Shown: positions 18,083 through 40,612 of the stretch, one piece after another | Layout: every line of letters begins with the position of its first letter | How positions within the stretch are numbered: position 1 is the first letter of the stretch | DNA from: Frankia sp. AgB32 | Lineage (GTDB): Bacteria; Actinomycetota; Actinomycetes; Frankiales; Frankiaceae | Assembly: GCF_023243045.1 (NCBI RefSeq) | Contig: NZ_JALKFX010000076.1 | Location: forward strand, 1-44,852 | Length of the DNA: 44,852 nt | Direction of reading: 5' to 3' | Position numbers and translations under genes: made by a program | The notes under the pieces: generated by a model | Databases searched by the model: none | Told to the model about the DNA's origin: nothing | The model's input: the letters and a program-made list of their open reading frames with translations, nothing else

Positions 18083-19287
18083 GAGGCCTCCGGGCGCCAG
18101 CGGGCGCCCGGGGTGTGGAACGTCGGGTTGGCGCCGAGCGGGCGCACCAGGCCGACGCAGGAGAACGGCAGGTCGGCCATCTCCTCGACGGGAACCCCGC
18201 GGTCCTCCGCGAGCGCCAGGACGTGGGCCAGTTCGTCGAGCCGGTCCGGGGCGACGAGGATCCGCCACGGCACCCGGCGCAGCAGCACCCGGGTGGTCTC
18301 ACCGACACCCGGCTTCACCATGACGACGTCCGGGATGTCGTAGGCGGCGGCGATACGTTCCACCGCCGCCCAGCCGGCCCACGTCGGCGCCCGGTCGGCC
18401 GCCCACAGTCGCGGCCAGGTCGCCGCGACCTCGTCCGCGACGGCGTCGAACTGCGCGACGACCGTCTCGATGAAGTGCCGGGACAGGTCGTGCGGGGCGA
18501 GTTCGGCGTAGAACTTGGCGCCGTGGAAGTCATCCGGGCCGATGTGCTCGGCGTTCAGCACCGTCCGGCTGACCAGGCCGCTGACCGTCGAGTTCAGGCA
18601 GGCGCTCGGGATGAGGAAGTCGTCGCGGGTGCCGTAGAGCGGCACGCAGTGGGCCGGGTCGGCGAGCACGGCGAGGGTGTCGTCCAGCCCGAGGGGGGCG
18701 ACGGCCTCGGTGAGCACCCGGGTCATCACGCCCTTGCCGGTCCAGCCGTCGACGAACTGGATCGCCGCCGGGTCGAACCGCTCGGTCAGGTAGCGCACGG
18801 CGTTCATGTCGACGCCGCGATCCTTGATCACCGAGATGGCGTGGTGCGGCGTGTCGAGCCCGTGCCGCCAGCCGTACCAGCGGCGCATGAGAATCCCGAC
18901 CGGGGTGCCGGCGCGGGCGATGGAGACCAGCACCGGCTCGGGCCTGGTGACCCGCACCAACTCGGCGACCACGCCGGTGGCCAGCGCCACCCGCCGGGCC
19001 GAACGCTCCAACGCCTGGTGGTAAAGCCGCAGGTAGGAGGCGTCGGGCTGGTACTCGACCGGAAGATCCTCGGAGTAGTGGCGGCCGGCCTGCATCGCCT
19101 CCTCGCGGTCCTCCGTGGGGCGTTCCAGAGCCACGTCACTCAGGTCGGTCAGCAGGAACGTGACGTCGGCGGGATCGTACGAACCCGCGCCGATCGTCCG
19201 CGGCGCCGTCGGACCCGGCACCGCCGCACCCACCGGCTCGGCACTACCCACCGGGACAGCACTACCCACCGGGACGGACTCGCTCAT
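18079..19287 (-). CDS. StiP-family protein with C-terminal PELOTA-like domain
   Basis: 402 residues. After a repetitive N-terminus (VPVGSAVPVGSAEPVG) the conserved part begins SYDPADVTFLLTDLSDVALERP. The central region carries SIARAGTPVGILMRRWY, HAISVIKDRGVD and FVDGWTGKG, phosphoribosyltransferase-like segments in which the last matches a PRPP-binding loop. The C-terminal 70 residues (LVAPDRLDELAHVLALAEDR, ending PFSCVGLVRPLG) correspond to the PELOTA-type RNA-binding domain of these proteins. Family members are annotated as cysteine protease StiP, but comparative genomics of Ter systems treats them as phosphoribosyltransferases making a nucleoside-like compound; the sequence seen here favours that. 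Start and stop overlap both neighbours by four bases, so it is translated within a tight operon. Confidence 0.85.
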   Translation of the reverse strand: MSESVPVGSAVPVGSAEPVGAAVPGPTAPRTIGAGSYDPADVTFLLTDLSDVALERPTEDREEAMQAGRHYSEDLPVEYQPDASYLRLYHQALERSARRVALATGVVAELVRVTRPEPVLVSIARAGTPVGILMRRWYGWRHGLDTPHHAISVIKDRGVDMNAVRYLTERFDPAAIQFVDGWTGKGVMTRVLTEAVAPLGLDDTLAVLADPAHCVPLYGTRDDFLIPSACLNSTVSGLVSRTVLNAEHIGPDDFHGAKFYAELAPHDLSRHFIETVVAQFDAVADEVAATWPRLWAADRAPTWAGWAAVERIAAAYDIPDVVMVKPGVGETTRVLLRRVPWRILVAPDRLDELAHVLALAEDRGVPVEEMADLPFSCVGLVRPLGANPTFHTPGARWRPEAS

Positions 19288-20636
19288 GGGGTGGCTCCAC
19301 TCGTGGGGGCGGCGGGGCGGGGGGCCGGTCGGTAGGAGGGGACGGTGAGCACGGTCACCGGGGCACAGCGGCGCAGGTGGGCGACGAGGCCGGTCGGATC
19401 GGCCAGCGCGGACGGCGATCCGGCGTCGGCGCCCGAGTCGACGGCCACGACGATGTCGTCGTAGCGGTCCGGACCGACGTTGTACACATGGCTGACCCGG
19501 CGGGGGTCGTCCGGCGCCGGGAAGGTCAGCGCGGCGCGGATGGCATAGCCGTCGACATCGACCGGGTGGACGGGCGAACGGGTCGTCGACTGGTAGCGCA
19601 CCTCGCCCGGACCGCCGCGGGCCAGCTCGGCCGCGATCCGCATCGGCACGTACATGAACTCCTCGGTGCCCAGCACGAGCGTGCGACCCGCCGGCCGGGT
19701 CAGCGCGGACCGGACCGTGGTGGCCAGGGAGGCGAGGAGGTCCTCGAGTCGGCGCCGGTGCTGCGCCGACCACCCGTGCCGCCCGCCGTCGGGCAGGTCG
19801 GCCGGCCAGGCGGCGGTCAGCCACCGCACGCTCCCCTCCGCGGCGGTGCCGGCCCGGTCGATGCCGGCCCGGTCGGTGCCGGCCGCGGGGGTGAACCGGG
19901 CGCGGATCGCCGCGGCCCGCTCGGCGATCTCCGGGGGGACGGTGACCGTGGCGGCGACGAGGGCGACGACGTCGATCCGCACGCCGAGTTCGGCGGCGAG
20001 GTCGTCGAACGCCGCCCGGGCCGCCGTCGGCCGGGCGTCCACCAGGGCGGCCACGACGTAGTGCCCGCGGGGGACGTGCTCGTGCAGGATGCGGATGGTG
20101 CCGAGCGCCGTGCGCCCGGTCGACAGCTCGTCGTCGACGAGCACGATCGGCTCGTCGGTCGCCAGGATCGACGGGTCCTCGGGGACGAGCCAGTGGTGCG
20201 AGGCGTGCGAGTGCGACTCGGTGAACTCCAGCACCGGCGGCACGCCGGGCAGGTCCCGACGGGTGGTGTGCAGGTAGTGGCTGCCTGGCAGGCCGTCGGC
20301 GACCGTGTGGCCCAGCGCCGTGGCCGTCTCGCAGTAGCCGATGACGAGCCCGCCGACGCCCGGATAGCCGGGCAGGTCCCGGACCAGCCCGGCCAGGGCC
20401 GCGCCCACCTCCAGCCCGGCGGCCGGCGCGACCGGCAGGTGCTTGCCGAGAACGCGGCTGACCAGCAGGTGGGCCCGGCGCGGGTTGCGCCGCAGCGCGA
20501 GCCCCACCAGCGCGTCCAGACCGCCGCCACCCACGTCGGCGGTCACGTCGACGGTGAGCCCGAGCTCCGTCCACAGCCACCCCGCGTCCGCCGGGGATCG
20601 AGCGCCGCGGCCGGCTGCCCCGGTGGCCGTGGTCAC
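19284..20636 (-). CDS. Phosphoribosyltransferase with TRSP domain
   Basis: 450 residues. The PRPP-binding loop IVLVDDELSTGRT (164-176) marks a type I phosphoribosyltransferase domain (about 25-235). The C-terminal TRSP domain contains the naming motif TTRSP (351-355), after LGTEEFMYVPMRIAAELA. These two-domain proteins belong to the biosynthetic module found with tellurite-resistance-type (Ter) stress genes and are predicted to attach a base-like group to ribose 5-phosphate. The GTG start overlaps the lyase stop, and its stop overlaps the StiP start, each by four bases. A short Ala/Gly/Asp-rich insert (about 250-270) includes a repeated DRAGIDRAG. Confidence 0.88.
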   Translation of the reverse strand: MTTATGAAGRGARSPADAGWLWTELGLTVDVTADVGGGGLDALVGLALRRNPRRAHLLVSRVLGKHLPVAPAAGLEVGAALAGLVRDLPGYPGVGGLVIGYCETATALGHTVADGLPGSHYLHTTRRDLPGVPPVLEFTESHSHASHHWLVPEDPSILATDEPIVLVDDELSTGRTALGTIRILHEHVPRGHYVVAALVDARPTAARAAFDDLAAELGVRIDVVALVAATVTVPPEIAERAAAIRARFTPAAGTDRAGIDRAGTAAEGSVRWLTAAWPADLPDGGRHGWSAQHRRRLEDLLASLATTVRSALTRPAGRTLVLGTEEFMYVPMRIAAELARGGPGEVRYQSTTRSPVHPVDVDGYAIRAALTFPAPDDPRRVSHVYNVGPDRYDDIVVAVDSGADAGSPSALADPTGLVAHLRRCAPVTVLTVPSYRPAPRPAAPTSGATP

Positions 20637-21844
20637 CGGGGCACCCGTGCGTTTTCGAGAGCGGTCCGGGTCGCGGCGAGAACCTCGACGAACGTGTCGC
20701 CCTCGCGCAGCACGCCGAACGCCCGCGCCCGGCGCAGCACCGCCTCGGCCCAGGCCCGGTGCGGGCCCAGCTCGTTCATCTTGTTGGCGTAGCTGCTCGG
20801 CCGCACCCCGCCGGCACTGCCGGCAATGATCGACTCGGCGTCCGCGTACTCCTCCTGGCTGACGACCTGCAGCGCGTGCACCGCCGGGACATGACTGGGA
20901 TGGATCACCGTCTTGCCGTTCAGCCCGTTGGCCTTGTCCAGGACGACCTCCCGGATCAGCCGGTCGAGATCGGCGGAGACCAGGGCGTTGCGCATCCGGA
21001 TGGCGGACTGCCCACCGTCCGCCAGGTCGGCCTGCGCGAACGGGCCGACCCGCAGCGAGCTGACGAACAGCCGCTCCGGCTGGGCGAAGTACTCCCAGAC
21101 AGGGCCGGTGACGATGTGCTCGCCGCCGCGGGCGCAGATGTTCACGATGTCGGCGATGCAGTCACGCACCACCGCGATGTCGTAGATCGTCAGGTCACGG
21201 TCGCGGCGCAGGCCGAACAGGCCGCACAGGTCGGTGGCCCCGAGGCGGATCGCCAGCACCTGGTCGGCGTGCTTGTCGACCAGGCGGCGCACCGCGGTCA
21301 GCGCGTCGATCCGGGTCTCCCGGTTGATCACGGGCGGGCTCTCCAGCACCGGCATCGCCCACAGCGGCCGACCGGCCGTCTCCCCGGCGCGCAGCACCGC
21401 GTCGAGGGCCGCCGCGCCGCTCTCCTCGGTGAACTTGGGCAGGACGAAGCCGGACAGGCTGGCCGTCCCCCGCGGGCCCAGCCGGGCGACGATGTCCGGA
21501 ATCTGGCCGGTGGCCCGGACCCGGACGAACAGCAGCGGTGGCCCGCCGCCGTGGTCGGGCGGTTCCTCCGCCAGCCCGCGCAGCGCGGCGATCACGTTCG
21601 ACTCGGCATCGGCGACGTCGGTGTCGGCGATCGAGTCCTCCAGGCACAGCACCATGGACGTCACCCCGGCCGCGGTCTGCCTGCGCACATCGTTCGCCAG
21701 CCGGGGCCGGGTGCCGGGCGCGTAGAGGGTGGCGCCCAGTGCGGTGGCCAGCAACCTGCGGTCGCCGGCCGGATCGATCGTCTCCGGCGGCCGGTGGAAC
21801 AGTGCTTCGGCGGCGTGTGGGTCGAGGAAGGCGAAATGGCGCAA
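20633..21844 (-). CDS. HpcH/HpaI aldolase / CitE-like lyase
   Basis: 403 residues. TTG start at 21844, with GAGGGG eight bases upstream; the first residues RHFAFLDPHAAEALFHRPP are typical. CitE-type barrel motifs: LCLEDSIADTDVADAE (acidic, near the metal site), LWAMPVLESP, RLGATDLCGLFGLRRDRDLT, and NGKTVIHPSHVPAVHALQVVSQEEYADAES. Related proteins cleave or form C-C bonds in acyl-CoA or oxo acids. Here it is the first gene of a four-gene overlapping operon with PRTase-TRSP, StiP/PELOTA and HAD, the gene set predicted to make the Ter metabolite. Its substrate is unknown. Longer than CitE (about 290), as usual for this subgroup. Confidence 0.88.
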   Translation of the reverse strand: MRHFAFLDPHAAEALFHRPPETIDPAGDRRLLATALGATLYAPGTRPRLANDVRRQTAAGVTSMVLCLEDSIADTDVADAESNVIAALRGLAEEPPDHGGGPPLLFVRVRATGQIPDIVARLGPRGTASLSGFVLPKFTEESGAAALDAVLRAGETAGRPLWAMPVLESPPVINRETRIDALTAVRRLVDKHADQVLAIRLGATDLCGLFGLRRDRDLTIYDIAVVRDCIADIVNICARGGEHIVTGPVWEYFAQPERLFVSSLRVGPFAQADLADGGQSAIRMRNALVSADLDRLIREVVLDKANGLNGKTVIHPSHVPAVHALQVVSQEEYADAESIIAGSAGGVRPSSYANKMNELGPHRAWAEAVLRRARAFGVLREGDTFVEVLAATRTALENARVPR

Positions 21845-24417: not shown

Positions 24418-27400
24418 TCAGCGGACGACCAGGTCCTCGTCGGCCGGATGCGCGACGGTCCAGCCGACCGGATTCATCGACGCCGGCAGCAGCCGCACTC
24501 CCCAGGGCAGCTGGGCCCCGTCCAGGGTCACGTCGATGGTCCGCGTCACCGCCTGGTCCACCGGCGCCAGCCGGGACAGTTCATGCGCCTCTACGGCGGC
24601 CCGCGGCGGCGCGGTGCCCGGCCGGGCGAACAGGATCAGCTCGCCGACCGGACCGGAGGTGCGGACCTGCACCCGCATCGTCCGCCGCCGCCACCCGGAA
24701 CGGCTCACCGAATAGCTCACCGTCGGCCGCCGCGCAGCGGACTCACCGCGCTGACCACCCTCGTGGGGACCAGCGTCGTGCGGACCAGCATCGTACGGAC
24801 CAGCATCGTGCGGACCAGTGGTCGCGGTGCGCCCCGGGCCGGTGCCGTCGGCCGTGCCCGGGCCGTCGGCACCGACGGCCAGCGGCCCCGTGACACCCGC
24901 CGGCGCACCGGCGTCCGCGGGAAAGACCCCTTCCCCGTCCCCGGGTGCCCGGTGGGGGGGCCGACCCACCCCGAACGGCATTCCCCCCGTGGGTGGACCC
25001 ACCGGGCCGCCAGCGGGCACGACGGGCCCCTCCGCGGGGTGACCGACCGGCGCGACCAGCGGGTTTGGCGGTGCGTTGTGGCGCGCCAACGGGTTCGTCG
25101 CCGGGGTGGGACCGGTCCGTCCCGCCCGGGCGAGCGTCGCACCCGGGCCGCTCTGGCCCACCCCGACCGGAACGGGCAGCGGACAGGCCCCGCTGGGCGG
25201 GTGGGCCGGGCCGCCCCGCGGAGGCGGGGCGGTGATCGAGTCCTGGCCGCCCCGCGGCCCGGCGCCCGGGCGCGCTCCCGCGGCCCCGGGCGCGGCCGCG
25301 GCGACATGCCCGATGACGGGGGCCCCGGTGCTCGGGGAGATGGCCGCGGGGACGCCGGCCGGCGGCGGGTCGGCGCGGGTGGCGGCGCGGGCCAGCACGG
25401 AGGCACCGGCCCCCGCGATCCGGGCGATCCCACCGACCCGGTACACCGGGTAGGCCGCGACGTGGTAGGCCCAGCCGTCGGCGGGTGCCGCGAGATGCCA
25501 GCCGCCCTTGATCTCCAGGCTGGCGTTCGTCACCCTCGCGCTGGCGGCGAGCGGGTCGTCCGGACCCGTGGGCGGTCGGTCCCGCCGCCAGAACACCCGG
25601 GCCTCGTTCACCCCGGGCGGCATCTGGAACGACAGGATGATCGACTCGCCGCGGTCGTCGGCCCGCAGGTCACGCACCGGCTCGATGACGACGTGCCGCA
25701 CGGCCCGGCCGACCACGGCCCTGGCCCCGTGGACCGTCACCGGGGTGTAGACGGCCTCGCCGACCGGCGCGGACTCGACCGCCTGGCCGGCGCGGCTCGC
25801 CGCCACCAGCCGGACGGGGCCGGTGATCGCGTCGAGCGCCACCTCGTCGCCCTCCACGCCGAGCCCGCCCAGCGGCAGTGGACCGGAGCCGGGCATGACC
25901 AGCGGACCGGAGCCGGGCGTCGGCAGCGGCACCGGCAGCGCGCCGCGGCCGGCGCCCGGGCCGGGCTGGGCGGACGTCGCGTAGATCCGCACCTCCCAGC
26001 CGGGCGGCGGCGTCCACCGCAGGGTGGTCCGCCCACCGGCGGTGACCGCCGCGAGATCCCGCACGGGCCGCGGCCGGGCGATCACCTCGATGTCCGCCGT
26101 GGCCCCGGGCGTGCGGGCCGGCTGCCCGGTCACGTCGTGGTACTCGACGAAGACGTGGTAGCGGTAGGAGACCCCGACGGCGACGTCGGTGTCGTGGAAC
26201 ACGCCGCCGGTCACCCGGGCGCGCCGGGGCGGCTGGGCCGCCGCGGACAGGTCGGTCCGCTCGACCGTGACGACCGAGGTCGCCCCGTCCAGGCGCCATT
26301 CCAGCCGCACGCCGCTGGCGCTGCGCTCGGCGCGCAGGTCGGCGAGGTCGCGGGTGCACACCACCGGCGCGGTGACCACCGGCTCGGACCGGCGTTCGCC
26401 GCAGACCGCGGTGATCTCATGACGCACCGGGGTCCACGCCGGGGCACCGGCGTCATACAGCTCGGTGGCCCGGGTGGTGCCCAGGCCGCGCCGGCCCAGG
26501 GTCGCGCCTCCATCCTCGACCAGGACCACCCGCTCGACCCGGTACGACACCGGTCCGCAGACCGACGGCGAGGGCCGCCAGCGCAACTGCACCGAGCCGT
26601 CGGCGCCGGCCACGGCGGTGAGCTCACCGGGCGGGGCGAGCGGCAGTGCGGCGAGGGCGGCGAGAGCCTCCCGGTTGTCCGCGGCGGTGGCGAGAACAGC
26701 GGCCAGCGCCGCTTCCTGCGCCTCCGCCGGCAGGACCCGCGCCGCCTCGACCCGGCGGCGGATGACGGCCTGCGCGGCGACGAGTTCGGCGAGGACCTCG
26801 GCCGGGCCGCGGCCGTCGGGGCCGGGCACGTCGGCCGCCTGCGCGGTGAGCCAGCGGGCGTCGTCGAGCGCGGCGTCGGCCCGGCTGGCCGCGCGGGCCT
26901 CGGCCAGGGCGCGCCAGCCGGCGTCGGCCGCGCCGCGCGCGGCCGCCACCCGGGCGCCGCGTTCCTCGGCGGCGCCGGCGACCGGCCCGCCGACGGCCGC
27001 CAGCACCGGACGCGCGGCGGCCAGGAGGTCCCCGGCGGAACGGGGATGCCCGCTCTCCAGCGCGCGTCGCACCGCCGCGAGTGCCTCTGCCGCCTCCCGC
27101 GCCTGGCGCAGGCTGTGGCCGCAGTGGCGGCACACGACCGCGGCGGCCTCGGTCATCGACCCGCAGGACGGGCAGCCGGTGTACAGGTCGGTGTCGCAGT
27201 ACCGGCACTGGCGGGCCGCGCCCGCTGCCTCCGGCCGCCCGCAGCCCGGGCAGACCACATAGTCGACGACGCCGCCGACGTTCACCGCCGCGCCGAGTTC
27301 CCGGGCGACCCCCAGCACCACGGCCTTTGCCTGCGCCGCGGTGAGGCCGCGGCCGGTGGCGAGCGCCGCGCGCACGAGGCCCTCGAAGGCGACGGCGGTG

Positions 27401-28242
27401 AGCTCGCCGTCGAGCACGACGTGTTCCTCGACGGCGGGGCGCAGCTCGTCGGCGGCGTCGGCGAGCAGGCCGACGGTGTACGCGGCCGGGTCGCCCTCGA
27501 TGAGCCGGGCCGAGACCAGCGCCAGCAGGTCGGCGGTGACCGTCTTCTCCCGGTCGTGCGGACGGCGGTTGTTGGCCGCGCCCGCCGCCGCGTAGGCGGC
27601 GCTGAGCCGTGCCGGCGAGGCGTCGGGGGCGAGACCGAGGAAGGCCCACAGCGAGGCGGTGGACACCCGGTCGCCGCCGCGCAGCGCGCGCAGCTCGCCG
27701 AGCCGTTCGGCGATCTGCCGGCGAACCTCGCTCGGCAACGGTTTCACCCCGCCACCGACGCCGTCGATGATGATCTGCTCGCGGCTGAGCCGAGCGTCGA
27801 ACTCCTCGACGGTCACCCCGGCGGCTACCGCGAGCCGGCGCAGCCCGTCGACCCGCGAGGCGGGGATGCCGCCGAAGCGCTCCCGCACCGTGGCGAGGTA
27901 GCCGTCGACCTTGGCCAGTCGCTCGGCGTCACCGCTGCGGCGGGCGGCCAGCACTCGGGCGCGGACGCGCTCCCGGGTCTGTGTCTCGCGCAGCGGCTCC
28001 TCCCACTCGACGCGGCGGCGGACCAGCTCGGTGGCCAACGTCGCGTACTTGGCGGAGTTGCGCTCGCGTTGCAGGAAGGCCAACACCCGAACCAGATGCG
28101 CGCCGACCTCCGAGTCGGTATGACCGACCGTCGGGTCGAGACCGGCGATCAGAAAGGGGTCGGCCGTGTCCACGGAGGAGCCCGCCCGCAACGGCGCCAG
28201 CACGCGCTGGCGGTACCCGCTGCCATCGAACGCCGCGCTCAA
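24418..28242 (-). CDS. Giant zinc-knuckle/FN3 protein with J-domain-like segment
   Basis: 1274 residues from TTG 28242 (GGTGG five bases upstream). Helical N-terminus (1-190); a J-domain-like segment (198-255: LWAFLGLAPDASPARLSAAY, then RRPHD, then a helix ending DPAAY); four CxxC knuckles (C331/334, 346/349, 357/360, 371/374); an Ala-rich helical stretch (375-535); four FN3-like beta domains (about 538-625, 632-720, 726-800, 860-950); a long Pro/Gly-rich region with GPHDA repeats; and a C-terminal beta domain. DnaJ also pairs a J domain with four CxxC repeats, and the next gene upstream is an Hsp70, so a chaperone partner role is likely; that is inference, and no named family was recognised. 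No signal peptide or membrane segment is seen. Confidence 0.75.
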   Translation of the reverse strand: MSAAFDGSGYRQRVLAPLRAGSSVDTADPFLIAGLDPTVGHTDSEVGAHLVRVLAFLQRERNSAKYATLATELVRRRVEWEEPLRETQTRERVRARVLAARRSGDAERLAKVDGYLATVRERFGGIPASRVDGLRRLAVAAGVTVEEFDARLSREQIIIDGVGGGVKPLPSEVRRQIAERLGELRALRGGDRVSTASLWAFLGLAPDASPARLSAAYAAAGAANNRRPHDREKTVTADLLALVSARLIEGDPAAYTVGLLADAADELRPAVEEHVVLDGELTAVAFEGLVRAALATGRGLTAAQAKAVVLGVARELGAAVNVGGVVDYVVCPGCGRPEAAGAARQCRYCDTDLYTGCPSCGSMTEAAAVVCRHCGHSLRQAREAAEALAAVRRALESGHPRSAGDLLAAARPVLAAVGGPVAGAAEERGARVAAARGAADAGWRALAEARAASRADAALDDARWLTAQAADVPGPDGRGPAEVLAELVAAQAVIRRRVEAARVLPAEAQEAALAAVLATAADNREALAALAALPLAPPGELTAVAGADGSVQLRWRPSPSVCGPVSYRVERVVLVEDGGATLGRRGLGTTRATELYDAGAPAWTPVRHEITAVCGERRSEPVVTAPVVCTRDLADLRAERSASGVRLEWRLDGATSVVTVERTDLSAAAQPPRRARVTGGVFHDTDVAVGVSYRYHVFVEYHDVTGQPARTPGATADIEVIARPRPVRDLAAVTAGGRTTLRWTPPPGWEVRIYATSAQPGPGAGRGALPVPLPTPGSGPLVMPGSGPLPLGGLGVEGDEVALDAITGPVRLVAASRAGQAVESAPVGEAVYTPVTVHGARAVVGRAVRHVVIEPVRDLRADDRGESIILSFQMPPGVNEARVFWRRDRPPTGPDDPLAASARVTNASLEIKGGWHLAAPADGWAYHVAAYPVYRVGGIARIAGAGASVLARAATRADPPPAGVPAAISPSTGAPVIGHVAAAAPGAAGARPGAGPRGGQDSITAPPPRGGPAHPPSGACPLPVPVGVGQSGPGATLARAGRTGPTPATNPLARHNAPPNPLVAPVGHPAEGPVVPAGGPVGPPTGGMPFGVGRPPHRAPGDGEGVFPADAGAPAGVTGPLAVGADGPGTADGTGPGRTATTGPHDAGPYDAGPHDAGPHEGGQRGESAARRPTVSYSVSRSGWRRRTMRVQVRTSGPVGELILFARPGTAPPRAAVEAHELSRLAPVDQAVTRTIDVTLDGAQLPWGVRLLPASMNPVGWTVAHPADEDLVVR
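24763..24822. repeat. Four 15-bp tandem repeats coding GPHDA units
   Basis: Four units close to GTGCGGACCAGCATC in frame within the zinc-knuckle/FN3 gene, coding the run G-P-H/Y-D-A/E. Differences among units are mostly single bases. In-frame length (15) lets copy number vary without breaking the gene. Confidence 0.8.
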
Positions 28243-28612
28243 CGATCCACCTTCGTCCCACCTGCCCGTCGGGCCGAACGGCGATCCGACAGGTCCACGG
28301 ACACCGAATGCGGGAGGCGGGGCGGCAGGTCAACCGCCCCCCACCCGCAGGCCCACACCTGAGAGTACGGAGCGACGCCCTGCCACGGGCCCGGACGTCG
28401 CGGACACCCGGTCCGGCCGCGGTGGGGGCCGGCCCGGCATCGCCGTTCCCGCCCGTTCCCGGTCATGTTTGGGTGTCTGCGGTGAACCATATCGACTTCC
28501 GGGCCGATACCCGAAAGCGCCCACGAAGATGGATGATTGCTTTTTAATAACTTACGAAGTTACTAATTCTTAAATGTAGTTCGGAAAAGCGCAGGTCGCA
28601 GAGAGGCGGTGG
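28243..28612. other. Intergenic region with an AT-rich island
   Basis: About 370 bases between the Hsp70 stop and the zinc-knuckle/FN3 start. Most is GC-rich, but about 28535-28580 is mostly A/T. It contains a 6-bp hairpin TAACTT-ACG-AAGTTA (28548-28562) preceded by TTTTT on the plus strand. On the minus strand this may end the Hsp70 transcript or supply the promoter of the downstream gene. No gene is supported here. Confidence 0.55.
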
Positions 28613-30283
28613 TCAGTCCCGCTGCTTGAGGAGGTTGACCTTCGCCGACTCCGCGGCCCGCATCTCCTCCGAGCCGACGCCCGCGTGCACCTGAAGTACC
28701 AGCGCGGAGGCGGCACCCTCGTGCGATGCGGTAACCCGGATGGTCTGGTCCGCGGCCATCGAGAAGGTCACCTCGACGGGCGTGCCGCGCTGGTGACCCG
28801 GCGGAATTCCGGTGATGGCGCCGGCGACGATCACCTTGTTGTCGTCGATTTCCGTCGACTCGGTCGTGGTGCCCTGCTCGAACACCCGGATGTCCACCTC
28901 GGCCTGGTCGTCGGTGACGGTGTAGAAGGTGCGGGTCACCGAGATCGGCAGCGCGTCGTTCTGATGCGCGAGGAAGGCCGCGACCGGCACTCCACGGTCC
29001 TCGGCGAAGATGCCAAACCCGCGGGATGTGACATTGGTCACTTTTGTTCGGACAAGATCGACCACCGAGGCCGTGGCGAGTCCCGCCTCGCCGGCGCTCG
29101 CCGCCGCCGCCTTCTCCACGTCCGCCGCGTCGGCCGCCGCGAGCTCCTGATCTGGCCGCAGTGCCCCGCTGGCGACGAGGTCGGAGTGCACGGCGCGCTC
29201 CAGCTCCTTCTTCTGCCCGAAGACCGCGGCGCCCTTGGCCACCGCGAGATCCGGATCGGCCAGCCGCGAGGTCAGCCCGAACGACTCCTGCAACCGCCGA
29301 GCCACCGCCGGCGTCTTGCTCATGCCGCCGACGAGCAGACACAGGTCGATCTTCTCGACCCCCTTCTCCCGGGCCCGTTCCAGCACGGAACCGGTCAGAT
29401 CCAGGGTGCGCCGCAGCAGCGGGCCGGTGATCTCCTCGAAGGTCGCCCTGGTCACCGGCACGCTGACCCGGTGGCCCCTGTGCACGACGAGGACGTCGAC
29501 GCTGTCCCGGCCCGACAGCGCGAGCTTGGCGTCCTCGGCCGCCGTCAGCAGCTCCTGCTCGTCGTAGACGTCGTCGAGCGGGTCGCCCGCCTCCGGCTCC
29601 GCCTCGGTGAACTTCTGCGCCAGGTAGCGGACCAGCTCGTTGTCCCAGTCCGCCCCGCCGAGCTCGTGGTCGCCGTCCGTCGCGACCACGGTGATCGCAC
29701 TCTCGCTGAGCCGGATGACCGTCGTGTCGAACGTGCCGCCGCCGAGGTCGTAGACCAGCACGGTCGACTCCTCGGCGCCGTCCTGGCCGAACCCGTACGC
29801 GAACGCGGCAGCCGTCGGCTCGTTGATGATGTCGACGACGTTGAGGCCGGCCAGGTCACCGGCGAGCTTCGTCGCCTTGCGCTCCTCGTCGCCGAAGTAG
29901 GCCGGGACCGTGATGACCACGTCGGTCACCGGCGTGCCGGTGGCCCGCTCCGCGTCCGCCGCGAGCGCCTTGAGGACCAGGCTCGACACCGACGCGGCGC
30001 TGTACTCGACGTCATGCGCGACGAAGCGCCAGTCCGACGTCCCCATGTGCCGCTTGACCAGCCTGGCGACATCGTCGGGGCGGATGCGTGCCTGCCGCTT
30101 CGCCTGGGTCCCCACCACGAACGACGTGGCGCCCGCGGCGCCCTCGTCGAACAGGACCACCGACGGCGTCGTCGGCTGGGACTCGATGTTGCGGATCACG
30201 TCCGGTCGGCCGTACTCGTCGACCTGGGCGATGCAGGAGTAGGTCGTGCCCAGGTCGATCCCGAACACCTTGGTACCCGCCAC
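28613..30283 (-). CDS. Divergent Hsp70 (DnaK-like) lacking the lid
   Basis: 556 residues from GTG 30283 (GGAGAG nine bases upstream). The ATPase domain is complete: GIDLGTTYSC (8-17), INEPTAAAFAYG (153-164), VYDLGGGTFD (177-186), LVGGMSKTPAV (317-327). An Ala/Asp/Glu-rich segment (about 360-412) replaces the short linker of DnaK. A beta-sandwich-like substrate domain follows (about 413-535), including VIVAGAITGIPPGHQRGTPVEVTFSMAADQ, and the protein ends at 556, so the helical lid (about 100 residues in DnaK) is missing. It is therefore not the housekeeping DnaK. A GrpE-like gene precedes it and a zinc/J-like gene follows, both on the same strand, which suggests a dedicated chaperone set. No HAIR or CIRCE heat-shock operator was seen upstream. 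Confidence 0.92.
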   Translation of the reverse strand: MAGTKVFGIDLGTTYSCIAQVDEYGRPDVIRNIESQPTTPSVVLFDEGAAGATSFVVGTQAKRQARIRPDDVARLVKRHMGTSDWRFVAHDVEYSAASVSSLVLKALAADAERATGTPVTDVVITVPAYFGDEERKATKLAGDLAGLNVVDIINEPTAAAFAYGFGQDGAEESTVLVYDLGGGTFDTTVIRLSESAITVVATDGDHELGGADWDNELVRYLAQKFTEAEPEAGDPLDDVYDEQELLTAAEDAKLALSGRDSVDVLVVHRGHRVSVPVTRATFEEITGPLLRRTLDLTGSVLERAREKGVEKIDLCLLVGGMSKTPAVARRLQESFGLTSRLADPDLAVAKGAAVFGQKKELERAVHSDLVASGALRPDQELAAADAADVEKAAAASAGEAGLATASVVDLVRTKVTNVTSRGFGIFAEDRGVPVAAFLAHQNDALPISVTRTFYTVTDDQAEVDIRVFEQGTTTESTEIDDNKVIVAGAITGIPPGHQRGTPVEVTFSMAADQTIRVTASHEGAASALVLQVHAGVGSEEMRAAESAKVNLLKQRD

Positions 30284-30437: not shown

Positions 30438-32825
30438 TCAGCGGGCGCGGTAGACCTCGGTCTCGGCCGGCCGGACGACAGTCGTCTCGCCCCGGACGAA
30501 GCCGGGACGCACGGTACGGGCAATCGTCCCGTCCCGGCTCTGGTCGTCCGTGGGTACCCGCCGCACGCCCAGATGCCGTGCGGGGTCGAAGGTCCCACCC
30601 GGCACCGCCGTGTACGGCCGCACGTCCACGGCGAAGTCCAGGACCTGGAGCAGCTGCTTGCGCAGGATGCCGGCGACGCTCTGTGGATCGTCGGCCCCCA
30701 GGCTACCCATCTGGTCGTGCAGTCTGATCAGCCCGCGCAGGAGCGGGGCCATCGCCTCGGTGAGCTCCCCGGAACGCAGCCGGCTGTTCTCGGCGTGCAA
30801 CCGGTCGACCAGATCGGAATCGAGGCGCCGCAGGCGGGCCAGTTCGTCGACCCGGCCGGCGAGCCGCTCCAGCGCGACCGCCTGCACGGCCCCGACCGAG
30901 TCGGCAAGCCTGTCGGCGGCCGCCGCGATCCCGTCGGGGGAAGGCTTCCTCACCCCGTCGTCCACCCCCGGTCCACCGCCACCAGCCACCTGGGCTCCCT
31001 CGGGCTCCGCCGGGCCGTCGAACTCCGGTGCGCCATCGATCTCCACAACCACGTCGGGTTCCAGAGCACTGTCGACCTCCGGAGCACTGTCGACCTCCGG
31101 AGCACTGTCGACCTCCGGACCACCGTCGAACCCCGGACCACTGTCGACCTTCGGGCCGCCGGCGAACTCCAGGAAGCTGGCGAGGTCGAAGCCGTCCCCG
31201 GCCCGATCACCGCTGTCCGCCCTCACTGCGGGGTCGATCGGCGGGAGGGCCTCCCCACCCGGCCGATATACCGCCGGCGCGGGGCCACGATCGTCCGCGT
31301 CGGGTGTCTCCGAACGGGTGCCCGCGGCCGCCGGGTAGCCGGCGGCGCCGTGCCCCGGACCGGTCGGTGACTCGCCACCGGACCCGAAAGGATCGCCGCG
31401 GCCGTCCTGGACGCGCTCGCCGTCGATGCCAAAGGCGGCCGGCTCCACCGACAGCGGAGGGTCCGGGTACTCCCGGGAGCGTCGGTCCGCCGGCCCCAGC
31501 GAATGGTGCCGGTCGTCGCCGGTGCGCCACGGGTCCGCCACGGCGACGCCCTCGGCGCCATGCGGGTCGGCATCGCGCAGGCCGGCATCGCGCAGGCCGG
31601 CGGGGCGAGCGGGATCGACGTAGGCGCGGGCGGTCGCCGGCTCGCCGCCGAGCTCGCCGTAGCCGCCGGACTCCCCGTGAGTGGCTGGCTCGCCGTAGGT
31701 GGCTGACTCGCCGTGGTCGCCGTGGCCGGCAGGTGCGGCGCCCGCCGACCAGCCGGTCGGGTCGTAGCCGCCGACCACCCTCGCCGGGAGCCGGGGCTCG
31801 CCGCCAGGTCGGTCGGCGCGCTCCGCGCGCGGCCCGGTCCCGCCAGTGCCGGGTTCGTCCCGCCGGTGCTCGTCCGCGCTGGCGCGATAGCCGCCGGAGA
31901 CGTCTTCCAGAGCGTCGGACAGCGGATCGCGACCCGCCCGCGGGGGGCGTGCGTCGCCCGGCACGGACGACGGATCGTCACCGGACTGGGCCGAGCCGGA
32001 CGGTGGCACGCCGAAACCGCGCACTCCGAACGGTGCGGCCACGTCCCAGCCTGGTGTGGGGCCGGCGCGACCCGCGTCAGGATGGCCGCCCGTGCCGTGC
32101 CGGCCCGGATCCCTGTACCCGGGCTCCGGCAGGCCGGCCGCCGGGTACTCGGATCCGTAGGACTCGGACGCCGCCCCACGCGGCCCCGGCTGGTCCGGCC
32201 CGGACTGGTCGGGCGCCGAGTAGCCGGGCCATGCGCGTCGGACGTGACCACCGGAGGGGTCGACGTAGCCGGGTACGGCGGCACGGGTCGCCGGATCCCG
32301 GCCGTAGGACGGCCCGTTGCCCGCGGGCCCGGCGCCGCGCCAGCCGAGCGGGTCGGACCCGGTGGCGTCCCGCCGGGCCGGGTCGTCCGCCGGCCGGTAC
32401 CGCTCGCGCCGCGGCGCGTCCCGGCCGTGCGCGTCCAGACCCCGCACGTCGAGACCCCGCACGTCCAGTCCGGGAGCCGCGGGTTCCGGCGTCCCCGACC
32501 CCCGCGGTTCGGGCTCCACGACGTCCGCCTCCGCCTCGTCCGGGGCAGCAAGGTCCGATGCGGGACGGTCCGACCTGGACCCAGCCGGTTCCAGGACCTC
32601 CGGTTCCAGGACCTCGGGTTCCAGGACGTCGGGTTCCAGGACGTCGGGTTCCAGGACGTCGGGTTCCAGCATGTCCGGATCGCGGGCGCCTGAACGCGGT
32701 GCCCGCGGATCGTCGGGCGCGCCGCCCGGTCCGTGGCCGGCGGGCGGCCCGCCGCGCGCGGGCCCCGCGGGAAACCAGCGCGTCCGCTCGGTGCGGGGCG
32801 CGGGATCGCGGCGTGGCTGGAACAT
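30438..32825 (-). CDS. GrpE-like exchange factor with giant disordered N-terminus
   Basis: 795 residues from ATG 32825, with GAGGAGG about 11 bases upstream; an in-frame ATG at 32873 lacks a ribosome site. Residues 1 to about 600 are low complexity and acidic, with blocks of LEPDV, VDSAPE and YGEPATHGES repeats. The C-terminal 180 residues look like GrpE: a long helix (VDELARLRRLDSDLVDRLHAENSRLR), a four-helix part (MAPLLRGLIRLHDQMGSLG) and a beta end (GTIARTVRPGFVRGETTVVRPAETEVY), which resembles the GrpE beta-wing segment. It probably releases ADP from the Hsp70 encoded next, 154 bases downstream. Typical GrpE is about 200-250 residues, so the N-terminus is exceptional. Its role is unknown. 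Confidence 0.82.
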   Translation of the reverse strand: MFQPRRDPAPRTERTRWFPAGPARGGPPAGHGPGGAPDDPRAPRSGARDPDMLEPDVLEPDVLEPDVLEPEVLEPEVLEPAGSRSDRPASDLAAPDEAEADVVEPEPRGSGTPEPAAPGLDVRGLDVRGLDAHGRDAPRRERYRPADDPARRDATGSDPLGWRGAGPAGNGPSYGRDPATRAAVPGYVDPSGGHVRRAWPGYSAPDQSGPDQPGPRGAASESYGSEYPAAGLPEPGYRDPGRHGTGGHPDAGRAGPTPGWDVAAPFGVRGFGVPPSGSAQSGDDPSSVPGDARPPRAGRDPLSDALEDVSGGYRASADEHRRDEPGTGGTGPRAERADRPGGEPRLPARVVGGYDPTGWSAGAAPAGHGDHGESATYGEPATHGESGGYGELGGEPATARAYVDPARPAGLRDAGLRDADPHGAEGVAVADPWRTGDDRHHSLGPADRRSREYPDPPLSVEPAAFGIDGERVQDGRGDPFGSGGESPTGPGHGAAGYPAAAGTRSETPDADDRGPAPAVYRPGGEALPPIDPAVRADSGDRAGDGFDLASFLEFAGGPKVDSGPGFDGGPEVDSAPEVDSAPEVDSALEPDVVVEIDGAPEFDGPAEPEGAQVAGGGGPGVDDGVRKPSPDGIAAAADRLADSVGAVQAVALERLAGRVDELARLRRLDSDLVDRLHAENSRLRSGELTEAMAPLLRGLIRLHDQMGSLGADDPQSVAGILRKQLLQVLDFAVDVRPYTAVPGGTFDPARHLGVRRVPTDDQSRDGTIARTVRPGFVRGETTVVRPAETEVYRAR
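31065..31154. repeat. Five 18-bp tandem repeats in the GrpE-like gene
   Basis: Units of AGCACTGTCGACCTCCGG; the first three are identical (31065-31118) and two diverged copies follow. They code the hexapeptide PEVDSA on the minus strand. In frame, recently expanded. Confidence 0.85.
32587..32676. repeat. Six 15-bp tandem repeats in the GrpE-like gene
   Basis: Six units of GGTTCCAGGACGTCG (some with CTCC/CTCG ends) coding LEPDV or LEPEV on the minus strand near the protein's N-terminus. Near-identical, so recent or gene-converted. Confidence 0.85.
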
Positions 32826-32892
32826 CGGGTATCGATCCTCCTCGCCGCCGGATGGCGGGACCGGGGGGGTCATCGCGAGGTGCCGGCGTGTC

Positions 32893-33567
32893 TCACTTAC
32901 GGCCGGCGGTCCAGTTCAGCCCCCATCCGTAAGCCTGGTCGAGCTCACGGTGACCGCTTACGTACCGGACCTCCCGGCTCACGCTGAAGTCGCCACCAGT
33001 ATTGGTCAGCAGGGCGATCGCGCACATCCTGGCCCCACCGGCCTTCTCGTCGAGACGTACCTCGATGGGGGCTCCCTGCGCGGGGGTCAGGGTGACCACC
33101 GCGTCGGCCTGGTCGAAGGAGGCGACGCCCTCGTAGATGAAGGCGAACACGAGCACCCGGCGGATCTGCGCGACCTGGGCGAGGTTGACGTACAGGTTCT
33201 CCCCGCCGGCGGTGGCGCCGGTGCGGTCGTCGGCGTCGAGGTGGATGTAGGGCGGCCCGTCGAAGGATCCGAACGCGTCACCCAGGGCCTGCACGACCCC
33301 CGCCCGACCGTCGGAAAGCTCGAACAGGGCGGCCAGGTCCAGGTCGGTCCCGCCGCCGGCCGCGCCGAGCACCCGCTTGAGGAAGCCGCCCTTCTGCGGG
33401 GCGCCGCCGCCCGGGTTCTGGTTCCAGTTCAGGTTGACGTGCAGCCGCCCGCCGCCGCCCTGCTTGCTCAGCGACACGGTCGGCGTGGCCTTGGTCAGGG
33501 TCACCTTGCTCAGGGAGACCGAGCCCGGGCTGGCCGGCCCGGGACGCTTGTTGTAGTCGATGCCCAT
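32893..33567 (-). CDS. TerD-family protein (first copy, with N-terminal extension)
   Basis: 224 residues, ATG 33567 with GGGAG six bases upstream. TerD-domain proteins bind calcium and belong to tellurite/stress response systems. Visible: two SLSK strands (VSLSKVTLTKATPTVSLSKQ), NLNWNQNP, the calcium-site region TDLDLAALFELSDG, HLDADDRTG and GGENLYVNL, then FAFIYEGVASFDQADAVV and the conserved end DQAYGWGLNW. This group differs from classic TerD (second copy at 35305) in its NWNQ start and long C-terminus. It is followed at 67 bases by the GrpE-like gene on the same strand, which links Ter proteins to the chaperone set. Confidence 0.9.
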   Translation of the reverse strand: MGIDYNKRPGPASPGSVSLSKVTLTKATPTVSLSKQGGGGRLHVNLNWNQNPGGGAPQKGGFLKRVLGAAGGGTDLDLAALFELSDGRAGVVQALGDAFGSFDGPPYIHLDADDRTGATAGGENLYVNLAQVAQIRRVLVFAFIYEGVASFDQADAVVTLTPAQGAPIEVRLDEKAGGARMCAIALLTNTGGDFSVSREVRYVSGHRELDQAYGWGLNWTAGRK

Positions 33568-33794: not shown

Positions 33795-34958
33795 CTACAG
33801 CGGTGCGCCGACCGGCTGCCGGTCCGCGTCGTCGCCGTCACCGGCGGTCGTCGGCCCCTCGTCGGCGGCCAGGCGCCGACGGTGCAGGATGGACGAGATC
33901 AGCGCCAGCCCGATGAAGGCCACCCCGACGAGGCCGGTGACGATCTCCGGGACCTCCGTCTCGATCGAGATCGCGAGGATGATCGCCAGCGCTCCGATCG
34001 CGTAGTGCGCGCCGTGCTCCAGGTAGATGTACTCGGACAGGGTGCCCCGGCGGACGAGGTACACCGTCAGGGACCGGATGTACATCGCGCCGATGCCCAG
34101 ACCGGCGGCGATGATGAAGATGTTCTGCGAGATGGCGAAGGCTCCGACCACACCGTCGAACGAGAACGACGCGTCGATGACCTCCAGGTACAGGAACAGG
34201 AACGCGGCGGCCTTGCCGGTGGCGAGCACGAGCTTCGGCGTACCCGACGCGGCGCCGGTCCGGGCGGCCGGCGCGGCGGCGGGTTCCTCGGCCTCGGCCT
34301 CGTCGTCCTCGGCCTCCTCACCGACCCCGCGGGACTCGAAGAACTCACCGAGGCCCCGCACCCCCAGGTAGGTGGCGAGTCCGGCGACGCCGGACGTCAG
34401 CACCTGCTGCGTGTGGTCGCCGGAGAACGCCTCGCCGACGACGAGCAGCGAGACGAGCGCGATCACGATCGGGATGACGTCGAGCTGGCCGGCGCGGCGC
34501 AGCGGTTCCTCCAGCTTCTTGATCCACTGGACGTCCCGCTCGGGGTCGAACAGGAAGTCCAGGAACAGCATGAACAGGAAGATCCCGCCGAACGCAGCGA
34601 TCGCCGGATGGGCGGCGTTGAGCTTCTCCCCGTACTCGTCGCCGTGGTTGAGCGCCAGGTCGAAGACGTCGGCCGGGCTCAGGTGCGCGGTGAGCGCCAC
34701 GATCACGATGGGGAAGAGCAGCCGCATGCCGAACACGGCGATGAGCACGCCGACGGTCAGGAAGATCTTCTGCCAGAACGCGCTCATGCGACGCAGAATC
34801 GTCGCGTTGATGACCGCGTTGTCGAACGAGAGGCTGATCTCAAGTACCGCGAGAATCGCCACGAGCGCCGCGTCCCGGGGGCCGCCGATCACTCCCGCGG
34901 CGGCCACCCCCAGCACGGTGATCGCCAGAGACCACCCGAAGATCCGCAGGGCGTGCAC
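33795..34958 (-). CDS. TerC-type integral membrane protein (DUF475)
   Basis: 387 residues from GTG 34958, with GGAAGG nine bases upstream. About nine hydrophobic segments. The paired signatures EISLSFDNAVINATIL (N-terminal half) and EVIDASFSFDGVVGAFA (C-terminal half) are those of the TerC/DUF475 group, membrane proteins linked to metal homeostasis and to TerD function. A central cytosolic loop (about 228-258) carries a run of Glu/Asp (GEEAEDDEAEAEEPAAAP) not needed for the fold. The C-terminus is polar. It lies between the two terD genes. The transported ion, if any, is unknown. Confidence 0.9.
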   Translation of the reverse strand: MHALRIFGWSLAITVLGVAAAGVIGGPRDAALVAILAVLEISLSFDNAVINATILRRMSAFWQKIFLTVGVLIAVFGMRLLFPIVIVALTAHLSPADVFDLALNHGDEYGEKLNAAHPAIAAFGGIFLFMLFLDFLFDPERDVQWIKKLEEPLRRAGQLDVIPIVIALVSLLVVGEAFSGDHTQQVLTSGVAGLATYLGVRGLGEFFESRGVGEEAEDDEAEAEEPAAAPAARTGAASGTPKLVLATGKAAAFLFLYLEVIDASFSFDGVVGAFAISQNIFIIAAGLGIGAMYIRSLTVYLVRRGTLSEYIYLEHGAHYAIGALAIILAISIETEVPEIVTGLVGVAFIGLALISSILHRRRLAADEGPTTAGDGDDADRQPVGAPL

Positions 34959-35258
34959 GCCTATCAACACCTTCCAGGACCAATCGCCAGACCCCGGTCG
35001 CGCCGCGTGGCAGATCCGCGGTCCCTCGGATCCATCCCCGTCGCCTGAACTCGCCGGCGACCGCGTCGGCCCGGGCCAGGCGGCCCCAGACGGCGGTCGA
35101 CGGCATCGTAGCTGCAAGTTCGGCGGGCGCTACCTGACAAACGGGTTACAGCGGGCCTAGCACCCGCTACCCGTGCACGACGCCCCACAGCTACCGGTGG
35201 ACCGAACGGCACGGCACGGCACCGGTGGTCCCGCACCGATGACGCCTGCGCCGGCTGA

Positions 35259-35961: not shown

Positions 35962-36770
35962 TCGTGTCGCCGGGTGCTTCCCTGCGTCGCTGCGCTGATA
36001 CTGATGGGGTCGAACTGGTACGGGTGCCGCTTCGGTGCTGGGTGTCGGTGGTGCCTCGCGGACGTCGGCGGTGTGCCCGGGGCCGGCGCCGAGCCGCCCG
36101 GCGCACGCGCCGCGGGTCCGTGGCACGCCCTGACTCCCTGACGCCGCCCTTACCCCCGCCGCCCGGCGCTCCGCCGGCCGGGCGCCGGCAGCGTACTGCC
36201 GGGCACGATCGTCGACGCGCCTCCACCCGCGGAGGCCACGCACCGGAGTACGTCTGCTCTGCGGGACGAACGGCTCGCCCGGGAGGTTCCCACCCGCCGT
36301 CGGGTGCCGGCACGGGTATACCCGCCCGGCGCGGCCGGCGCCGTCACGAATCCGACATCGGCCGGGCGGTCCACCGACCCGACCGACCCGGGAGCCGCGT
36401 CACACCGCTGTAACGCGCCCGGAACCCGCTCGGGCCGGCTTTCGGCCCGACACCCACCGGAATCACACCGACAGGAGGTGCTCCGAGCAGTCACCGGATG
36501 GCCCGCTGTCACCGGGCCCGATGGCCCACCGTCACCTGACGGACCGCGAAACCACCCGCCCGACAGCACAACGGACACGGTTCGGACGTTCATGGGTCCC
36601 GCAACTGGGGAACATCGGGTTCAGCGCGAACCATCCGGACGGGGCAGACAGACCCACCTCGACACCAACAATCACCCACGAGATGGTCGCAGGCCGTTCA
36701 CGCAGAGGTGTCGTTATTCGCCACGTACAGGGCGGACCATTGGGGCGTGGTTCGTCTGGATAAGGTCGCC
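35962..36770. other. Long divergent intergenic region, terD / glgE
   Basis: About 810 bases between divergent genes. No open frame gives a recognisable protein. Structures seen: a 7-bp hairpin CCGGCAG-CGTA-CTGCCGG (36185-36202), an inverted repeat GGTTC-N5-GAACC (near 36618-36632), and imperfect GTCACC repeats at 36488-36545. GC falls somewhat from 36560 toward glgE, where its promoter should be. No clear consensus promoter. Confidence 0.45.
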
Positions 36771-38761
36771 ATGATGATCGGACGTTCAGTAGGCCGGGTT
36801 GTCATCTCCGACGTGACCCCGGTCGTGTCGTGTGGGCAGTGGCCCGCACGCGCGGTCGTGGGCGAGACTTTCACCGTCAGCGCGACCGTCTTTCGAGAAG
36901 GTCACGATCTGCTCGGCGCGAACGCCGTGCTGTCCGGTCCGGACGGCCAGGGCGCGCCGTTCATCCGCATGCACGCCGTGGGCGAGGGCACGGACCGCTA
37001 CGAGGCGGAGATCACCACAGGCGAGGAAGGCCTGTGGGGGTACCGCGTCGAGGCATGGTCCGATCCCGTCGCCACCTGGCGGCACGGCATCGAGCTCAAG
37101 GTCGGGGCGGGGCAGACCGTCGACGAGCTCGCCGTCGACCTCGAGGACGGCGCGCGGCTGCTGCTGCGGGCGCTGCCGGGCGTGCCGGAGGGACGCCGGG
37201 CCGAGATCGCCCGGGCGGTCGCCGCGTTGCGCGACGACACCCTCGAGGATCCGCACGACCGGATCGCCGCGGCGGTCGACCCGCGCCTGGCCAGCCTGCT
37301 CGACGCGTTCCCGCTGCGAGAGCTGATCACCCGATCGCCGCTCTACCGCGTGTGGGTGGACCGGCCCAGGGCGCTGTATGGCAGCTGGTACGAGATGTTC
37401 CCCCGTTCGGAGGGGGCGACGCTCGACCCGCCCCGTTCGGGGACGTTCCTGACCGCCGCCGAGCGCCTGCCGGCGATCGCGGAGATGGGCTTCGACGTCG
37501 TCTACCTGCCCCCGATCCACCCGGTCGGCGAGGTCAACCGCAAGGGCCCGAACAACACCCTCGTGCCCGGCCCGGACGACCCGGGCTCGCCGTGGGCGAT
37601 CGGCAGTGAGCACGGCGGCCACGACGCGGTGCATCCGGACCTCGGGACGATCGAGGACTTCGACCTGTTCGTCGCCCGCGCGCGCTCGCTCGGCATGGAG
37701 ATCGCGCTCGACCTCGCCCTGCAGTGCGCGCCGGACCACCCGTGGGCGAAGGCGCATCCGGAGTGGTTCGTCGTGCGCAGTGACGGCTCGATCGCCTACG
37801 CCGAGAACCCGCCGAAGAAGTACCAGGACATCTATCCGCTGAACTTCGACGCCGATCCGACCGGGCTGTACCAGGAGATCCTGCGGGTCGTCCGGCACTG
37901 GACCGCGCACGGAGTGCGCATCTTCCGCGTCGACAATCCGCACACAAAGCCGGTCGAGTTCTGGGAATGGCTCATCGGTCAGGTGAAGGCGGCCGAGCCG
38001 GATGTGCTGTTCCTCGCCGAGGCTTTCACCCGGCCGCCGATGATGCACACCCTGGCGAAAATCGGCTTCACCCAGTCGTACACGTATTTCACCTGGCGGA
38101 CCGAGAAGTGGGAACTTGAGGCGTACGTCCGCGAACTCGTCGAAGCCGGTCACTACATGCGGCCGAACTTCTTCGTGAACACACCGGACATCCTGCACGG
38201 CTACCTCCAGGACGGCGGGCCGGCAGCCTTCCGGATCCGCGCGGTTCTCGCGGCGACGCTGTCCCCGACCTGGGGCGTGTACGCCGGTTACGAGCTGTAC
38301 GAGAACGTGGCGGTCAAGCCGGGCAGCGAGGAGTACCTCGACTCGGAGAAGTACCAGTACCGGCCGCGGGACTGGGCGGCGGCCGAGCAGGCGGGCCGAT
38401 CGCTCGCGCCCTACCTGACCCGGCTCAACCAGATCCGCCGGGCCCATCCGGCGCTGCACTGGCTGCGCAACCTGCATGTGCACCACGCCGACAGCGACCA
38501 GATCATGGTCTACTCGAAGCGACTCGCGGACACCGGGACCGGCCCCGCCGACACCGTGCTCGTCGTGGTCAACCTGGACCCCCGCAACGCGTACTGGACC
38601 ACGGTGCGGCTGGACATGCCCGCGCTGGGGCTGGACTGGCACGACACGGTCGAGGTCACCGACGAGATCACCGGGTCCACCTACCAGTGGGGCCGGGACA
38701 ACTACGTGCGGCTGGACCCGTCGGTCGAGCCCGCGCACGTTCTCACCCTGCGGACCCGGTC

Positions 38762-38765
<4 letters not shown>
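36771..38765 (+). CDS. glgE: Alpha-1,4-glucan:maltose-1-phosphate maltosyltransferase
   Basis: GH13_3 enzyme, 664 residues from ATG 36771 (AAGG five bases upstream). Upstream in-frame GTGs (36708, 36747) are possible, but the first brings in a rare TTA codon. GlgE adds maltosyl units from maltose 1-phosphate to the growing alpha-1,4-glucan. The N-terminal domain opens [24 protein letters not shown], as in mycobacterial GlgE. The barrel carries [35 protein letters not shown] with nucleophile D388, and [12 protein letters not shown] with acid/base E417. It overlaps treS by four bases (GTGA). First gene of the glgE-treS-mak-glgB cluster. Confidence 0.96.

Positions 38766-40612
<1,847 letters not shown>

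Follow-up and report, generated by a model that had tools for sequence, protein, structure and literature searches.

J domains normally switch on Hsp70 chaperones, and their HPD motif is held to be nearly indispensable; in DnaK, Arg167, the contact of HPD, is critical. For E. coli, passages in three papers place the His of HPD against Leu391 of the linker and its Asp against Arg167 (PMC8215388, PMC7289447, PMC13012618), and passages in two of them report a suppression in which DnaJ D35N works with DnaK R167H or R167A (PMC7289447, PMC13012618).

Three described systems come close to the locus analysed here, which lies in a stretch of 44,852 nucleotides of Frankia DNA that we call the window. 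The first, an Hsp70/GrpE theme, belongs to the GTPase-centric conflict systems of the GAP1-N2 type; in it, according to passages of PMC7159879, FNIII repeats typically occur in fusion with a DnaJ domain or with TPR repeats. Our locus shares with what is described there a set of Hsp70 and GrpE genes linked to a protein of the FNIII/DnaJ type, but it differs in two respects: Pfam finds no GAP1 or DO-GTPase gene among the window ORFs that were scanned, and its J module is without HPD, in a protein whose FN3 is not confirmed by search. The second is the group of type IV or pseudo J proteins, such as Pam16 and DnaJB13, which in the relevant passages of PMC13254874 have a J fold with HPD non-conservatively replaced. 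The likeness lies in these two traits; the window protein, in contrast, is bacterial, has perhaps two modules per chain, and is linked to an Hsp70 that lacks the matching residue. The third is HscC with DjlB and DjlC, a divergent Hsp70 with divergent J partners, as parts of PMC8215388 and PMC13254874 present it. There the HPE of DjlB and DjlC keeps an acidic residue where the window has Arg in a gap-free register, and HscC is believed to work without GrpE, while the unit in the window includes a GrpE-like gene.

The features of the locus are the following:

24418..28242, minus strand: gene of the J-like protein with a double zinc ribbon and a putative FN3 (1274 amino acids from the listed TTG start)
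27937..28167, minus strand: possible second J-like module M1, residues 26-102 (structure matches Z 6.1-6.3; sequence profile negative)
27463..27660, minus strand: J-like module M2, residues 195-260 (family profile, AF2 models, structure matches)
27562..27570, minus strand: N225-R226-R227, the HPD place in the gap-free alignment (disputed in the low-confidence tail of the hhalign alignment)
27553..27567, minus strand: loop R226-D230 (RRPHD) of M2 (models and family alignments)
27118..27252, minus strand: double zinc ribbon, residues 331-375 (Pfam DZR, E 7.8e-05, under the curated cut-off)
28613..30283, minus strand: adjacent Hsp70 of 556 amino acids, ATPase domain and SBD-beta (Pfam and alignment with DnaK)
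29831..29833, minus strand: Asp151 of the adjacent Hsp70, opposite DnaK Arg167, the contact of the Asp of HPD (alignment)
30441..30953, minus strand: GrpE-like C-terminal region of the 811-residue ORF 30438-32873 (family profile against the PDB; GrpE 3a6m, E 2.6e-06)

An earlier note on this DNA had pointed to a degenerate J domain in what it called a zinc/FN3 protein. The residues it quoted are present on the minus strand, inside the 1274-residue ORF 24418-28242(-), and the plus-strand frame that was tried has stops; relatives of the protein have a TTG or GTG start at the same place. Pfam sees the weak DZR match at residues 331-375 together with related zinc-ribbon models. FN3 is not confirmed: Pfam finds none in the protein, and a profile of residues 575-960 against the PDB gives nothing significant (best match E 0.19). 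Antisense to the gene, a frame of 1304 amino acids is open at window positions 24448-28362 (+); it is expected in G+C-rich DNA and is probably not a gene.

The N-terminal part of the protein is found in 34 of the 35 genomes of the family (E up to 1e-5), with at least two matches in 29 of the 35: an orthologue, of 64-97% identity except in G013 (39%), and a paralogue, of 33-39%. The nearest named relative, Frankia sp. AgKG'84/4 (L033), has an N-terminal part that is 97% identical. Beyond its family the protein is rare: profile A1, at E up to 0.001, matches 38 of 393 genomes of the class, and four of the 38 belong to other families, one of these being marginal; in family f4, 12 of 201 genomes match (E up to 1e-6); and a sample of the phylum yields 3 of 396, one being the genome under study and one marginal. 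The labels orthologue, paralogue and f4 used below were given by identity and search output, without a tree, and all counts are of loci, several of which may share a genome, and not of independent events. Alignments A1, A2 and A3 hold 30, 31 and 28 of 35 rows, close relatives being omitted and, from A1, also the incomplete L092; A6 and A7 hold 13 and 11 hand-picked rows; and L047 is without M1 owing to a split frame. In the window's own genome the paralogue is interrupted close to a run of G in contig C227 (L092, about position 6185) and resumes at the end of contig C251 (the end of L192), through either an assembly break or a rearrangement.

The explanation that we prefer, and consider rather probable, is that M2 is a pseudo-J domain, with a J fold and probable J ancestry but without HPD, in a dedicated partner of the adjacent Hsp70. 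The gene lies in a unit of GrpE-like, Hsp70 and J-like genes, in which the HPD-Arg167-Leu391 relay would be unused. The binding of M2 to this Hsp70 we infer from gene order alone.

Is M2 a J domain at all? For the single window sequence, the J likeness claimed by the earlier note is not significant: M2 scores 2.9 bits in a J HMM built from the J domains of relatives, several reversed controls score higher, and the best family members reach E about 0.001 in the same HMM. Pfam (E up to 1) and NCBIfam find no J family in the window protein, nor any J match in the paralogue (L090), f4 (L188) and L237 proteins tested, and M2 is not among the five matches of PF00226 over its own genome (E up to 10; four over the cut-off, one below).

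As a property of the family, on the other hand, the likeness stands up to comparison with shuffles and with models. An HMM-HMM comparison, one of the checks that the earlier note had proposed, was run with hhalign, setting a profile of the 31 relatives in alignment A2 against 36 non-redundant J domains; it gives a probability of 91.8 and a score of 35.4. None of 300 column shuffles of A2 reaches that score (the highest is 16.45), and the reversed alignment scores 9.2. The confident part of the match is 27 columns long, runs from helix I to helix II, and stops before the HPD region. When segments of 80 columns are slid over the N-terminal region, the score is high only for starts 146-199, that is, for segments overlapping residues 198-223. 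By group, the probability against J domains is 91 for 20 orthologues, 89 for 24 paralogues, and 1.8 for 12 f4 sequences. The best 25 rows are all J-domain ORFs when an M2 HMM is run over 1808 ORFs from J loci together with the reversed sequences, and the best 14 rows are J-protein chains when the family profile is run against all PDB sequences, at modest E-values (best 0.018).

Modelling, the other check proposed, gave two models with four-helix J topology. For residues 1-325, AF2 run on 16 sequences yields one good model of five (mean pLDDT 83.5, 74.1, 66.9, 62.8 and 62.6), and in this best model M2 is covered by blocks of 87-96. Its helices span residues 198-202, 210-225, 231-248 and 252-278, with residues 226-230 as a loop. 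The model of M2 alone has a pLDDT of 79.3 and the same helix starts, helix II extending to 226 and helix IV to 275. In VIA, 20 of the 21 rows with Z of at least 5 for residues 1-325 are J-domain entries by title; of these, 17 span M2 and three span residues 26-102, or M1, with Z 6.1-6.3. With M2 alone the best ten rows are all J-domain entries: 8fe5 comes first at Z 9.0, 4wb7 superposes 80 residues at 1.9 A (Z 8.7), and the DnaK-bound DnaJ, 5nro_B, superposes 60 at 1.9 A (Z 7.4). These values, 9.0 at most, should be read bearing in mind that a middling Z comes easily to short helical modules. Foldseek E-values are weak: EfAvs5, which is no J protein, leads the rows for residues 1-325 at 0.84, ahead of the best J entry at 2.0; for M2 alone the best row is a J domain, at 0.091.

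The predicted fold of M2, in the AF2 models and in the VIA matches, is thus the four-helix J fold. A common helical hairpin that merely resembles J helices I-II would agree with a confident match limited to 27 columns, with a single sequence that is not significant, and with the weak Foldseek values. Against it stand the shuffle control, at 0/300, and the J entries that top both VIA lists, the Foldseek list for M2 alone and two sequence-profile searches, with helices III and IV in place. We regard such a hairpin as very improbable. The reading of M2 as having no known relation was ruled out, family profile and fold being in agreement. Both support the earlier note in calling the module non-canonical. 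By the standards applied to type IV or pseudo-J proteins, M2 is recognisable by family profile and fold, its single sequence not being significant, and its HPD is non-conservatively replaced.

A second J-like module, M1, may be present in the same chain, judging by the model. By sequence, hhalign gives M1 a probability of 0.44 (55 sequences), and the profile search of the PDB lists no J chain for it. A J likeness of M1 at the sequence level was set aside as unsupported; the case for the module is the model alone.

We now turn to the HPD place. The earlier note was right that HPD is replaced: it is absent at the M2 loop whichever register is taken, the window reading NRRPHD, and no orthologue-clade, paralogue or f4 sequence has it there. 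What stands in its place is a matter of register. In a multiple alignment with canonical J domains, window M2 needs no gap between helix I and the DP that precedes helix IV. This gap-free alignment puts HPD opposite Asn225-Arg226-Arg227; PHD is displaced from there by three residues and borders on helix III. When hhalign is forced to full length, a three-column gap appears and Asp230, together with the RPD of the paralogues, comes to lie opposite HPD, with a confidence there near zero. That PHD occupies the HPD place, as the earlier note proposed, is therefore doubtful: the forced alignment would have it so, at low confidence, but the gap-free one would not, and the register chosen in that note was probably off by three. 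Nor is a reordering of HPD to PHD our first choice, given the shift of three residues, the position of PHD just before helix III in both models, and the RPD found there in 24 of 24 paralogues.

One could nevertheless suppose that PHD does the work of HPD, in permuted order or shifted place, and that the J domain is in other respects active. Asp230 is nearly invariant, PHD is kept in 18 of the 20 orthologue-clade sequences (L086 has AHD and L088 RHN), RPD stands in 24 of 24 paralogues, and the forced alignment places Asp230 and this RPD against HPD, albeit with low confidence. This supposition requires three extra residues before the motif and an equally shorter loop after it. In both models PHD stands immediately before helix III, the partner Hsp70 is without Arg167, and f4 has no Asp at that place. 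We find it quite improbable.

In the gap-free register, the HPD place reads xRR in 18/20 orthologue-clade sequences, R[AEQ]R in 24/24 paralogues, and R[EQ][LM] in 12/12 f4 sequences. The loop as a whole is well kept. All 16 sequences in A5 have the same residues 226-235, RRPHDREKTV, and differ in helix II; in the wider set this stretch is found in 17 of 20 orthologue-clade sequences, the deviants being L094 (HRPHD), L086 (RRAHD) and L088 (ASRHN), and f4 is different. The earlier descriptions of an Ala-rich helix II and of a DPAAY motif were correct, the latter being located at the start of helix IV. For DnaJ, we use the residue numbering and most helix limits that we take to be the usual ones, except for helix III. 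This helix spans residues 41-58 in a passage of PMC13012618; in M2 it starts at 231 in the model, and residues 3-65 of 5nro_B align to M2 195-254. On the model, the loop of M2 seems to fall short of that of DnaJ by two to three residues. A passage of the same paper reports that loss of Pro34 in DnaJ lengthens helix II there (PMC13012618), and this is what the helix II of M2, running into the HPD place, fits.

The other side of the contact lies in the adjacent Hsp70. This protein retains the ATPase signatures GIDLGTT, NEPTAA and DLGGGTFD; it is without the alpha lid, and the part from ATPase domain to SBD-beta is 47 residues longer than in DnaK. Its VLLL linker is replaced, with VTNVTSRGFG where DnaK has VLLLDVTPLSLG, and VLLLD is found in none of 56 Hsp70s from the orthologue clade, the paralogues and f4. 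At the Arg167 place, Asp is found in 20/20 Hsp70s of the orthologue clade, the window included, and in 23/24 partners of the paralogues, the 24th (L075) being masked; the twelve f4 Hsp70s have Gly in 11 cases and Ala in one. With HPD lost in the J-like module, and Arg167 and VLLL lost in the Hsp70, both sides of the HPD-Arg167-Leu391 relay are changed. The canonical ATPase response is consequently not to be expected, since the adjacent Hsp70 has lost both the equivalent of Arg167 and the VLLL linker.

By itself, Arg167 is often lost in divergent relatives, as can be seen in the window's own genome, where no PF00012 match outside DnaK with a readable site has Arg at this place: the window and paralogue Hsp70s have Asp, L196 has Gly, L197 and L234 have Asp, and L199, which looks MreB-like, has Tyr. 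L198 and L236 have no clear alignment there. The Hsp70-like gene of L234, at 7115-9577 (-), has no J-like match within 18 kb.

Could the two changes compensate each other? In an inverted salt bridge, M2 Arg227, or Lys65 of M1 (Lys or Arg of HP[KR] in its relatives), would meet Asp151 of the Hsp70, and the pair, with two tandem J-like modules, would be active but orthogonal, insulated from DnaK/DnaJ. The M1 loop reads RDHP[RK]Y in 24/24 paralogues, RDHPKY in 11/12 f4 sequences, and RNSAKY in the window. In the gap-free register, the D35 place holds Arg in 19/20 orthologue-clade sequences and in 24/24 paralogues, where the readable Hsp70s have Asp; in f4 it holds Leu (7) or Met (5), facing Gly or Ala in 12/12 cases; and one-sided loss can be suppressed in E. 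coli, as the D35N pairings with R167H or R167A in passages of PMC7289447 and PMC13012618 indicate. These counts represent few events, however, because the clades share ancestry. Moreover, the control L234, in the same genome, has Asp with no J-like match in 18 kb, L088 pairs Ser with Asp, the register is uncertain in that the forced HMM alignment sets Asp230 at the D35 place, and VLLL, the partner of the His of HPD, is lost too. We hold this natural charge swap to be improbable.

The Hsp70 and J-like genes are linked. Among 40 loci examined, 37 have a J-like match (19 orthologue, 15 paralogue and 3 f4 loci), and in all 37 an Hsp70 is encoded upstream, on the strand of the J-like gene. A GrpE-like gene precedes the Hsp70 in 18 of the 19 orthologue loci, the 19th ending at that point, and in none of the 15 paralogue loci; of the three f4 loci, only one has a GrpE-like match, a weak one in an opposite-strand frame. 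It is still conceivable that the modules are a J-derived scaffold that holds the protein together or dimerises, in the manner of Pam16 with Pam18, with no contact with Hsp70. In favour of this, HPD is lost, J similarity is nearly gone in f4 and yet the gene pair is retained, and there is the precedent of Pam16, in the passages of PMC13254874 that treat it. Against this, the M2 loop is better conserved than helix II, as RRPHDREKTV shows in 16/16 and 17/20 sequences, and linkage to Hsp70 is found in 37/37 loci. A scaffold seems to us somewhat unlikely.

On the preferred explanation, that of a pseudo-J domain in a dedicated partner, M2 would dock at the face formed by the ATPase domain and linker of the Hsp70, through the conserved RRPHDREK loop. 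Docked M2 would tether or gate the Hsp70, without firing ATP hydrolysis via the HPD-Arg167-Leu391 relay, and the zinc ribbons and beta-rich tail of the J-like protein may bind the client. The unit of GrpE-like, Hsp70 and J-like genes would be a relative of the chaperone theme in GAP1-N2 GTPase conflict systems. A bridge to that theme is provided by L237 992-12000, the third cluster of relative G029, which encodes, in order, GrpE (Pfam E 1.6e-05, just below the curated cut-off), Hsp70, a protein of 964 amino acids that shares M1 (E 1.5e-06), DO-GTPase2, GAP1-N2/M/C and DO-GTPase2. This cluster is the Hsp70/GrpE theme as passages of PMC7159879 present it, and since a cluster that shares M1 belongs to it, the window unit is kin to the published theme.

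The kind of system is thus already known, from those passages of PMC7159879; what is apparently new is that the two partners in the HPD-Arg167 contact have changed together. No case of bacterial HPD-less J proteins, or of a joint D35-Arg167 change, was found in titles and abstract openings of the open-licence PMC literature, a scope that does not prove absence. With both HPD and Arg167 changed and the genes kept together, nature has set up an experiment on uncoupling, or re-coupling, a J domain and its Hsp70. It bears on a question that a 2026 review, in the passage concerned, calls enigmatic: whether HPD deviations are accidental or selected (PMC13254874).

PADLOC gives no match for the GrpE-like, Hsp70 and J-like proteins. 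The neighbours of the chaperone trio, sharing its strand, are StiP/PELOTA and C-C_Bond_Lyase genes downstream (18079-21844) and a DUF475/TerC gene upstream (33798-35129), genes that we take to be those of Ter stress clusters. ORF 32893-33567 (-), which adjoins the GrpE-like gene, contains VSLSK and GENLYVNLAQ, presumably a motif of TerA/TerD-like proteins, judging by eye; neither Pfam (E up to 0.01) nor NCBIfam (E up to 1) matches it, and its PDB matches are unrelated (best E 0.52). Farther out, glycogen and maltose genes are found on both sides: at window positions 36708-44708 (+), GlgE and GlgB accompanied by an alpha-amylase gene and a maltokinase-cap gene, and, at 9730-14903, a CBM_48/alpha-amylase gene and a phosphorylase with DUF3417.
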